From contig NZ_JAJFAX010000008.1 of the NCBI RefSeq assembly GCF_019710475.1, positions 1 through 64,000 on the forward strand: 64,000 nt of DNA. The letters are read 5' to 3'. Under the pieces are notes generated by a model that had not been told where the DNA came from, ran no database searches, and saw only the letters and a program-made list of their open reading frames with translations. The DNA is from Glycomyces sp. TRM65418 (GTDB lineage Bacteria > Actinomycetota > Actinomycetes > Mycobacteriales > Micromonosporaceae). The position numbers were made by a program, and so were the translations under genes. The first letter of the stretch is position 1; every line of letters begins with the position of its first letter. Below are positions 40,658 through 42,642 of the stretch, piece after piece.

Positions 40658-40704
40658 CACCGAGAAGGCCGGGAACCGCACCGCGGTTCCCGGCCTTCTC
40701 GGTG
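40658..40704. terminator. Hairpin copy 2, 22-bp stem
   Basis: 40658-40679 pairs perfectly with 40683-40704 around triloop ACC. The right arm runs directly into an ilvC-like 3' end, where the ilvC terminator would be expected. Confidence 0.8.
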
Positions 40705-40807
40705 ATCTCGCCCTGCTCCCCGCGCATGAGGGCGCGCCTGGGGCTCCGGCGGTCTCGGTCAGATCATGCCGCGGCTAGGCCGTCTCGGTGATCTTGCGCT
40801 GCACCCA
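40692..40807 (-). pseudogene. Displaced, degenerate 3' ends of ilvC
   Basis: Three successive fragments read on the minus strand. At 40775-40807 the DNA encodes [10 protein letters not shown] and a stop, exactly the IlvC C-terminus, in normal high-GC codons. At about 40750-40771 it gives LTETA-like sequence. At 40692-40736 it gives RALM then Q then ITE-x-A, matching the IlvC end [15 protein letters not shown] at nine positions and running into hairpin copy 2. Shared DNA includes GCATGAGGGCGCGC (14 bp with functional ilvC) and TCTCGGTGATCT (12 bp between fragments). Confidence 0.7.
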
Positions 40808-40830
40808 GCGGCAGAACGAAACCCGCGCAT

Positions 40831-41259
40831 TCATGCGACGTCTCCCCGTGGCGGCCGCAGGACCGCGACGTCGGTTCGAACGAAGTCTTCACCGACGCAC
40901 AGGATCGGCCGATCGAATTCAGCGGCGACGCCGTATACGACGCAGTCGCCGAAGTTCAGCTTGGCCGGGTACCGCCCCTTGCCGAAGCGCCGCCATGCTT
41001 CGAGTGCACGTTCGGCCGCACTGGCGGTTACATCGACTATCTCGATCTCTGCGTCACGGAGAAACCGTGCGGCGAGCCCGGTTCCGGGCAGACCGAAACG
41101 GGATTCGAGGACCATGCCGAGTTCGAGGTAGGTCGCAGCAGGCATGACCGCGGCGGTCGCCTGAGCGAGCACTTCCTCCAGCCAGTCCGCACCGGGTTCG
41201 TCGCTCACGATGGCGACGACCGCGGAAGTGTCCACAACGGGAAAGGCGGTTTCGGTCAC
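40831..41259 (-). CDS. vapC: PIN-domain toxin (VapC family)
   Basis: 142 residues. Acidic PIN residues in FPVVDTSAVVAIVSDEPG, ATYLELGMVLE, NFGDCVVYGVA and CVGEDF. This is the Rv0624/VapC30-like type and a different branch from the PIN toxin at 26985. It overlaps its antitoxin gene by 4 bp (ATGA or GTGA type) and lies wholly within the candidate cassette at the ilvC 3' end. Confidence 0.88.
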   Translation of the reverse strand: MTETAFPVVDTSAVVAIVSDEPGADWLEEVLAQATAAVMPAATYLELGMVLESRFGLPGTGLAARFLRDAEIEIVDVTASAAERALEAWRRFGKGRYPAKLNFGDCVVYGVAAEFDRPILCVGEDFVRTDVAVLRPPRGDVA

Positions 41260-41510
41260 GTGGGCAGGCCGTCCTCGTCGTAGCCGATGATGTCGTCGCT
41301 CGCGCGGGAGTCGAGTACCGGCAAGGACCGTGCTTCAGCGCGAAGGGCGTCCAACCGGTGGCGGATGCGTCGTGAACGAAGACCGTGCGCCTGCCGCTCC
41401 AGACGTTCACGGATCGCTTTCTCCACGGCTTCGGTAAGGGACTCCCCAGTGGCGGCGACAAGCTCACGCGCGAGCTGATCAGCTGCGGGGCTCTTGATGC
41501 TCAGTGCCAT
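41256..41510 (-). CDS. vapB: VapB-family antitoxin (Rv0623/PSK-type)
   Basis: 84 residues. MALSIKSPAADQLARELVAATGESLTEAVEKAIRERL-type opening (quoted here in parts: ALSIKSPAADQLAREL, SLTEAVEKAIRERL) is diagnostic of the VapB/PSK antitoxins paired with VapC. The C-terminal LPVLDSRASDDIIGYDEDG is the toxin-binding tail. It should repress the operon through an AT-rich site just upstream. Confidence 0.88.
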   Translation of the reverse strand: MALSIKSPAADQLARELVAATGESLTEAVEKAIRERLERQAHGLRSRRIRHRLDALRAEARSLPVLDSRASDDIIGYDEDGLPT

Positions 41511-41531
41511 GTCCGCAATTCTACCATTGAG

Positions 41532-41545
41532 TCTATAAATCTAGA
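41532..41545 (-). promoter_or_regulatory. Possible operator/promoter of the second vapBC
   Basis: TCTA-TAAATC-TAGA, an inverted repeat in an AT-rich patch 22 bp upstream of the vapB start, overlapping a plausible -10. Confidence 0.4.
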
Positions 41546-41573
41546 ACACGCTTCTCGCGCCGATTGTCGGGCC

Positions 41574-41620
41574 AACCTTAAAGGCCGGGAACCGCTGCGC
41601 GGTTCCCGGCCTTTAAGGTT
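41574..41620. terminator. Hairpin copy 3, 22-bp stem, after ilvC
   Basis: 41574-41595 pairs perfectly with 41599-41620 around triloop TGC, 12 bp after the ilvC stop. Its 13-bp core equals copies 1 and 2, while the outer AACCTTAAA pairs are its own. On the plus strand TTTTTATA follows, so it could stop transcripts from both sides. Confidence 0.8.
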
Positions 41621-41631
41621 TTTATACCGAA

Positions 41632-42642
41632 TTAGGCAGTTTCGGTAATTTTACGCTGCACCCACGGCATGAGGGCGCGCATCTTGGCGCCCGTCTCCTC
41701 GATCGGGTGGTCGTTCTGCTCCTGCTGGAGCTTCCGGTAGTTCTCGCGCTTCTCGGCCTCGGCGACCCATTCCTTCGCGAAGGTGCCGTCCTGGATCTCG
41801 CCCAGGATGCGCTTCATCTCGGCCTTGGTCTCGGCGTTGACGACGCGCGGGCCGCGGGTGAGGCCGCCGTACTCGGCGGTGTCGGAGACCGAGTACCACA
41901 TGTTGGCGATGCCGCCTTCGTAGATCATGTCCACGATGAGCTTGAGCTCGTGCAGGCACTCGAAGTACGCGGCCTCGGGGGCGTAGCCCGCCTCGGTCAG
42001 CGTCTCGAAGCCGGCCTTGATGAGCTCGGCGGCGCCGCCGCAGAGCACGGCCTGCTCGCCGAACAGGTCGGTCTCGGTCTCCTCCTTGAAGGTGGTCTTC
42101 AGGACGCCCGCGCGGGTGCCGCCGATCGCCTTCGCGTAGGAGAGCGCCACCGCCTGGGTGTCGCCCGACGGGTCCTGCTCCACCGCGACGAGCGCGGGAA
42201 CGCCCTTGCCGTCCACGAACTGGCGGCGGACCATGTGGCCCGGGCCCTTCGGGGCGACCATGGCGACGTTGACGTCGGCCGGGGGCTGGATCAGGTCGTA
42301 GCGGATGTTGAAGCCGTGACCGAAGAACAGGCTCTTGCCGGCGCTCAGGTTCGGGGCGATCTCGTCGGCGTACAGCTTGGCCTGCACGGTGTCCGGCACG
42401 AGGATCATGATGACGTCGGCCCACGCGGCGGCCTCGGCCGGAGTGAGCACCTTCAGGCCCGCCTCCTCGGCCTTCGGACGCGACTTGGAGCCCTCCTGCA
42501 GGCCGATGACGACCTCGACGCCGGAGTCGCGGAGGCTCAGCGAGTGGGCGTGGCCCTGCGAGCCGTAGCCGAGGACGGCGACCTTCTTGCCCTGGATCAG
42601 GGCCAGGTCGGCGTCGTCGTCGTAGAACACTTCAGCGGACAT
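41632..42642 (-). CDS. ilvC: Ketol-acid reductoisomerase IlvC
   Basis: 336 residues, class I type. It converts acetolactate or acetohydroxybutyrate to the dihydroxy acids of Val/Leu/Ile synthesis, with Mg and NADPH. The Rossmann motif is [19 protein letters not shown], with an SKSR loop consistent with NADPH. Catalytic-domain segments [21 protein letters not shown] (shown as [19 protein letters not shown]) and [18 protein letters not shown] ([17 protein letters not shown]) are intact. The last eight codons use A/T third positions and seem to come from an inserted cassette. Third in the ilvB-ilvN-ilvC operon, 19 bp after ilvN. Confidence 0.95.

Follow-up and report, generated by a model that had tools for sequence, protein, structure and literature searches.

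Cis-mobilizable elements (CIMEs) accrete at a shared attachment (att) site, as passages of PMC5704250 describe them. According to parts of PMC9262239, phages with serine integrases use protein-coding attB sites, such as groEL1 for Bxb1 and a DNA glycosylase gene for Bxz2, and their cores can be as short as 3 bp. For most clusters of large serine recombinases (LSRs), the predicted targets number between one and three gene clusters (PMC10083194, in part). Here we describe a candidate element related to both kinds of system, a vapBC toxin–antitoxin (TA) unit that lies between two copies of the 3' end of ilvC in a 64,000-nucleotide stretch (the window) of contig NZ_JAJFAX010000008.1 from Glycomyces sp. 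TRM65418, whose 5.09 Mb genome is designated G000. Two further systems of small modules serve for comparison. The pdif modules are mainly plasmid-borne and use Xer tyrosine recombinases and 28-bp dif-like sites. Integron cassettes are inserted at one fixed end of an array, so that older units are pushed outward, by the tyrosine integrase IntI acting with attC hairpins, and TA cargo is common among them. We consider it likely that the 3' end of ilvC is an attachment site in Glycomyces and that the vapBC unit is an integrase-less, att-flanked mini-element of CIME-like kind, probably moved in trans by a serine integrase.

The ilvC unit resembles CIMEs, as far as passages of PMC5704250 describe them, in being flanked by putative att sequences, in holding no recombinase and in stacking with elements that use the same target-gene end. 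It differs from them in its size of 0.86 kb, in its content of a TA pair only and in its recurrence across species with different cargo; moreover, a parent integrative and conjugative element or integrative and mobilizable element was not seen for the ilvC cassettes. With the serine-integrase phages, as portrayed in parts of PMC9262239, the site shares an LSR (found in one relative, G001), a very short common core and a proposed attB within a protein-coding gene. The earlier note on this DNA had called a protein-coding attachment site unusual, which holds for tyrosine integrases but not for serine ones (PMC9262239, in part). Unlike a phage, the G001 unit holds a recombinase only, and whereas Bxb1, in the excerpted accounts, inactivates its target gene, the ilvC element instead supplies a replacement gene end. 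Excerpted descriptions of the pdif/dif modules of Acinetobacter plasmids show small TA or resistance modules, flanking recombination sites and a recombinase encoded elsewhere, all of which recall the ilvC cassettes; the latter, in contrast to the mainly plasmid-borne pdif modules, use the end of a chromosomal gene. The likeness to integrons lies in one fixed insertion end, outward displacement of older units and TA cargo. A limited literature search found no description of TA-only mini-cassettes at ilvC.

The features of the window locus on which the argument depends are as follows.

41632..42642, minus strand: ilvC, the target gene, an open reading frame (ORF) for ketol-acid reductoisomerase of 336 amino acids (aa)
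41632..41655, minus strand: recoded last 8 codons of ilvC (CGT AAA ATT ACC GAA ACT GCC TAA), presumably element-borne, proposed attL side
41654..41664: proximal copy of the 11-bp direct repeat CGCTGCACCCA
41625..41647: dyad TACCGAA ... TTCGGTA across the recoded tail and its 3' flank, found by eye
41574..41620, minus strand: terminator-like hairpin accompanying the recoded tail, found by eye
41256..41510, minus strand: vapB antitoxin gene, 84 aa, Pfam PF07704 (PSK_trans_fac), E 1.6e-26
40831..41259, minus strand: vapC toxin gene for a PIN-domain protein, 142 aa, Pfam PF01850, E 6.1e-18
40807..40840, minus strand: right end common to the cassettes, 33/34 identical in G012, possibly the outer arm of attR
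40797..40807: distal copy of the 11-bp direct repeat CGCTGCACCCA
40775..40807, minus strand: displaced GC-rich ilvC tail, proposed host half of attR

The 11 terminal codons of ilvC are duplicated 0.86 kb downstream, beyond vapBC. The gene itself ends in TGG GTG CAG CGT AAA ATT ACC GAA ACT GCC TAA, and the displaced copy (40775-40807, minus strand) reads TGG GTG CAG CGC AAG ATC ACC GAG ACG GCC TAG, a GC-rich version encoding the same 10 residues, as the earlier note had described. That note counted all six differences as synonymous; five are synonymous codon changes, and the sixth is a change of stop codon. A/T-ending codons are concentrated in the working tail, with 6 in the last 8 codons against 8 in the preceding 329 (hypergeometric p 4e-8). 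The direct repeat described for both junctions lies at 40797-40807 and 41654-41664, and the 0.86 kb between the tails contains, as had been claimed, vapBC with Pfam matches for both genes and a terminator-like hairpin (by eye). These are the only genes of the cassette, which carries no recombinase or transfer gene, in agreement with the claim that the element has no integrase. The vapB and vapC ORFs overlap at 41256-41259, and an antitoxin gene overlapping that of a PIN-domain toxin identifies the pair, by sequence criteria, as a predicted type II TA system. The dyad has 7-bp arms and overlaps the stop codon of the A/T-ending tail; by eye, it is retained in G012, with one mismatch in G006 and 5/7 positions in G010. 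Hairpins of a similar GGCCGGG kind were seen by eye 3' of ilvC in many relatives.

The site was then compared across a set of 22 genomes of the genus, all of which (22/22) have an ilvC orthologue. It was readable in 20; G013, whose contig ends inside ilvC, and G007, whose contig ends about 77 bp past the stop, were excluded. At 13 of the 20 readable sites, vapBC, hicAB or their remnants lie 3' of ilvC. Eight have a complete vapBC (G000, G004, G005, G006, G008, G010, G011, and G012), followed in G004 by hicAB, and five more have hicAB or TA-gene remnants (G001, behind a recombinase, G003, G017, G019, and G020). Neither family was found at the other seven (G002, G009, G014, G015, G016, G018, and G021). 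The VapC family has 8 matches across the 22 genomes at E <= 1e-10, all 8 at ilvC, and HicB has 10, of which 8 are at ilvC and the remaining two are just 49-52% identical; therefore, these TA families are tied to the site. A displaced tail stands behind the cassette at 6 of the 13 TA sites (five vapBC, one hicAB), at offsets past the ilvC stop of +827 (G000), +827 (G012), +832 (G010), +829 (G011), +776 (G003), and +861 bases (G004). Searched with up to 3 mismatches, a 26-base tail pattern occurs at 21 places in 18 of the 22 genomes, 20 of them at the ilvC site, and the reversed-pattern control gave no matches. The remaining one, a tail match at G019:C43 inside an exonuclease-like frame, was dropped.

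Empty sites with a GC-rich tail, which the earlier note had anticipated, were found with the same flank in three genomes and without it in two. A profile of the tail plus flank matches the empty sites of G002 (E 3.3e-20), G007 (E 7.5e-22), and G014 (E 1.3e-19), where the GC-rich tail is joined to the flank otherwise found behind displaced tails. At the empty sites of G009 and G016, the tail alone matches (E 7e-7 and 1e-7), and the flank is absent. G018 has a weak displaced tail at about +302 and neither TA family. Large frames, which we take to resemble REP13E12/DUF222-HNH proteins, lie near the empty sites of G009 and G016 (L034, about 577-2239 bp, and L032, about 308-2708 bp past the ilvC stop).

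The A/T-ending tail is present in G000 and G012 in near-identical form and as variants in G006 and G010, all four with vapBC. The earlier note had asked whether relatives without vapBC share this tail; it occurs in none of the seven readable genomes without these TA genes. Recoding does not accompany every vapBC, as ilvC ends in a GC-rich tail in four of the eight vapBC genomes (G004, G005, G008, and G011). In a hand-picked sample of 22 of 80 named actinobacterial loci, 16 have a GC-rich ITETA ending, which indicates that the A/T form is derived.

Genome G010 is mosaic around ilvC. In the ilv-gene tree, from which the tail was omitted, G010 falls in a clade with G000, G002, G009, G012, G015, and G016 (100/100), but its vapBC groups with those of G005, G008, and G011 (100/99) and not with its own ilv clade. 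Placing the vapBC of G000, G012, and G010 together was rejected (approximately unbiased test, p-AU 0.002; the group was named after the tree was seen), and placing those of G000 and G012 together was not rejected (p-AU 0.42). Over the 330 bp before the core, ilvC of G010 is 96.7% identical to that of G012 and 87.6, 84.5, and 87.6% identical to those of G005, G008, and G011; identity to G014, a genome outside the clade, is 92.4%. For vapBC, identity is 78.2% to G012 and 86.3, 88.1, and 87.5% to the same three genomes. Identity in the short flank behind the displaced tail is 84.7% to G012 and 62-67% to G003, G004, and G011, and further downstream G010 is again 88-94% identical to G012, G002, and G009. 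This downstream region has a partial match in G004 (85% over 1.5 kb) and no match in G003 or G011, nor in the same-clade genomes G000, G015, and G016. These comparisons place a cassette of another lineage, bordered on each side by a tail, within a G010 backbone that belongs to its own clade, and we regard this mosaic as the strongest sequence evidence for insertion over inheritance. Between G000 and G012, vapBC is 79% and ilvC 96% identical, and aligned upstream blocks average 86.4%; as ilvC is conserved, this gap in divergence carries little weight.

A right end of about 34 bp precedes the displaced tail in the window and, with mismatches, in G003 (which has hicAB cargo), G010, G011, and G004. 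The right-end pattern GGTTTCGTTCTGCCGCTGGGTSCAG (25 bases, one ambiguous) has 0 mismatches in G000, G012, and G003 and one in G010, and with up to 3 mismatches it occurs nowhere else in the 22 genomes; in G011 and G004, this end has diverged further. A right end is thus common to vapBC cassettes and to the unrelated hicAB cargo of G003, which counts in favor of the attachment-site reading. The putative attL and attR are proposed from the tail duplication and this shared right end in 6 TA sites, dyad symmetry being not above chance.

The earlier note had predicted integrases next to ilvC 3' ends, and one was found, in G001. There, the ilvC tail is replaced by RHKYEAGAAQQ, and a 548-aa frame on the opposite strand fills the gap up to the right end and displaced tail (+1695 to +1745).

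G001:C22:45947-47593 (L049:12948-14594): intact LSR, 548 aa

The protein matches PF00239 (Resolvase; E 1.7e-29) and, by phmmer, a solved 500-aa integrase (E 1.1e-35); its best phage matches are mycobacteriophage serine integrases, about 30-31% identical. The displaced tail behind the LSR is recognized by the profile at E 5e-5. On one side of the unit, ilvC runs through ...TGGGT into the new tail, and on the other TGGGT is followed by the displaced tail, which gives a short common core. Judged by its catalytic Resolvase domain and by target halves sharing this core, the unit qualifies as a putative serine-integrase element. The insertion is hardly more than an LSR gene between two halves of the ilvC end. 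The hic and vapB remnants behind the LSR suggest that it was inserted ahead of a pre-existing TA array. In G021, a genome that is not sister to G001, IlvC ends in a similar RHKYEAGA sequence, and the site holds no recombinase.

Beyond the genus, the G001 LSR was found in none of 80 named ilvC loci, within the stretches examined, and in 300 family genomes no other match to it at E <= 1e-30 exceeds 41% identity. LSR homologues elsewhere in Glycomyces (33-39% identical) were set aside, as the surrounding stretch holds no ilvC, TA or tail match. A mother element was sought in viral_contigs and nothing was found; phages and plasmids gave distant LSR homologues only. As a candidate parent at ilvC, the G001 LSR unit alone was found, in a survey that did not search for conjugation or mobilization genes. 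The G001 right end shares GTGGGTTTCG with that of G003, at a near-equal distance from TGGGT. Among random 34-mers (n=5000), 4 attain the mean score of the G001 right end and 30 attain its best. Of the 156 34-mers that precede TGGGT, three reach the mean score, two of them known right ends, and three reach the best score, namely two known right ends and one overlapping one.

Insertion of the cassette is well supported, and the earlier note's proposal of an integrative-element footprint finds support in the empty sites, the G010 mosaic and the LSR at the G001 site. We propose that a circle carrying tail, terminator, TA genes and right end would recombine with the ilvC end at the core TGGGTGCAGCG. 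The synonymous tail and terminator of the element would replace the last ilvC codons, and IlvC would remain intact, since its residues are unchanged in the half that comes in. The former tail of the host would be displaced downstream, and repeated rounds would stack tails and cassettes. Cassettes of hicAB occupy this slot too, as does, in G001, an element made up of little besides an LSR. The likeliest mover would be a serine integrase of the G001 kind acting in trans and now absent from the window site. TA modules may persist through addiction. The cassette, the tails, the empty sites, the mosaic transfer and the LSR at the site of one species are visible in the sequences; beyond these, we infer that the recombination was site-specific, that an LSR was its agent, that the recoding may serve the att site and that the unit may continue to move.

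Beyond the displaced tail, the window holds three further features.

about 40748..40759, minus strand: short extra tail remnant ACCGAGACCGCC, found by eye, which aligns with the second-tail flank of relatives
40692..40741, minus strand: third, degenerate copy of the ilvC 3' end, extending about 20 bp upstream of the core
40660..40702, minus strand: terminator-like hairpin beyond the old tails, found by eye, proposed original ilvC terminator

The third copy, which the earlier note does not mention, is identical to the joined empty site at 40/50 positions (the best place in the window outside the three copies reaches 30/50) and has no stop codon before the directly adjoining terminator.

Several observations weigh against the view of ilvC as an attachment site served by a serine integrase. 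The third copy extends upstream of the core, unlike a simple attR. No recognizable displaced tail was found by tail scans in 6 of the 13 TA sites (G005, G006, G008, G017, G019, and G020), several of which appear decayed. The flank after the tail of G010 is just 63-68% identical to those of its clade members G009 and G016. An LSR lies at ilvC in just 1 of the 22 genomes, and no integrase-like gene was found at the site in the window. The sole Resolvase-family match of the window genome (G000:C12), in a search that did not cover tyrosine integrases, lies elsewhere with no tail beside it, and it does not match the G001 LSR at E <= 1. The likeness of the G001 right end to those of the cassettes, and hence the LSR–cassette link, is only suggestive, and G001 is not among the best 20 hits of the right-end profile. 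Finally, dyad symmetry of the reconstructed attP is not above that of shuffles in 7/7 cases.

Further searches concerned the recombinase and the symmetry of the sites. At E <= 1e-20, no homologue of the G001 LSR was found in G000. When 100 ilvC loci were scanned for a crude tyrosine-recombinase motif, in a search that did not include attC, the result was 7 frames resembling GC-rich chance frames. Dyad symmetry was rejected as proof of a serine-integrase site, as 0/28 attP, attB, attL, and attR sequences beat shuffles (lowest p 0.147). The TACCGAA/TTCGGTA dyad was likewise rejected as a mark of a serine-integrase attP, the reconstructed attP being no more symmetric than shuffles.

An account that we hold to be unlikely, though it has the most in its favor among the alternatives, assumes one ancestral TA insertion at ilvC, after which homologous recombination between tails and species shuffled, copied and deleted the cassettes with no integrase now at work. 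Decayed TA remnants in several species would fit such a history, as would the vapBC of G000 and G012, whose grouping was not rejected (p-AU 0.42). A second genus (g5), presumably Stackebrandtia, also bears on it: one of its five genomes (G101) has vapBC directly after ilvC, with a different ilvC ending, and no displaced tail was found behind this vapBC, a point that also goes against the attachment-site reading. By eye, G025 (L181) has tandem tail-like units right after the ilvC stop, about 40 bp apart, and G066 (L179) a second tail-like unit after the stop; neither has these TA genes alongside. IlvC ends in GRAAKGGKTA / GKPARGDKTA in G101 and G114 (L180, L183) and in KRxITETA in the 3 other g5 genomes, possibly another tail exchange. 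The vapBC of G101 and the tail-like units of G025 and G066 point to a longer history of the site and are compatible with homologous recombination. On the other hand, the single-insertion account has to explain the same right end on two unrelated cargos, the rejected grouping of the three clade-A vapBC of G000, G012, and G010 (p-AU 0.002), an LSR in the same slot in G001, and G010 borders that lie at the tails, which have little sequence in common for homologous recombination to use. At the ilvC stop of G025, another dyad, GAAACCGC/GCGGTTTC, was seen.

Decayed islands or prophages, integrated at ilvC by a serine integrase and stripped to the TA module, are a doubtful source of the cassettes and, in our view, a slightly less probable one than a single old insertion. 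CIMEs are defined in this way in passages of PMC5704250, and an integrase is present at the site in G001. However, the six displaced tails all lie 776-861 bp after the stop with TA genes only between, nothing larger that might be an intermediate was noticed among the 20 readable sites, and separate decays would have had to arrive at one size by coincidence. Of the two origins offered in the earlier note, a mini-cassette moved in trans agrees with a site reused repeatedly by two TA families, and the relic of a larger island fits less. We think it improbable that the A/T-rich tail is kept for an RNA or regulatory reason unrelated to mobility, such as a dyad hairpin at the stop codon. The dyad does span the stop codon and, by eye, is kept in G012 and nearly so in G006, but the tail or a variant occurs in just 4 of the 20 readable genomes, all with vapBC, and in none of the 7 TA-less sites. 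The last alternative, a high-GC stretch that happens to resemble the ilvC end, had been raised by the earlier note for the displaced tail and has nothing to commend it beyond the shortness of the 11-bp repeat; it is refuted by 33 bp encoding the same 10 residues and a stop, by the same arrangement in six genomes, by 20 of 21 pattern hits at ilvC and by the empty reversed-pattern control.

An ATPase_2-domain gene (PF01637, E 2.2e-8) lies beside the ilvC site at 39029-40495 of the window.

Beyond the attachment-site reading of the single locus, we tentatively suggest, as a possibility we hold with less than even confidence, an LSR-based cassette system, in which integrase-less TA mini-cassettes insert in order at the end of a housekeeping gene. 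Each would bring a new C-terminal tail, and the units would stack in an integron-like manner, with the gene product kept or its tail exchanged (RKITETA, RAITETA, RHKYEAGA...). The synonymous recoding would be a readable footprint of integration in a protein-coding gene, and the recombinase is a candidate whose predicted site lies in a gene end common to a wide range of actinobacteria. For chromosomal TA modules, whose spread without an obvious vehicle is an old puzzle, cassettes of this kind may provide a simple route.

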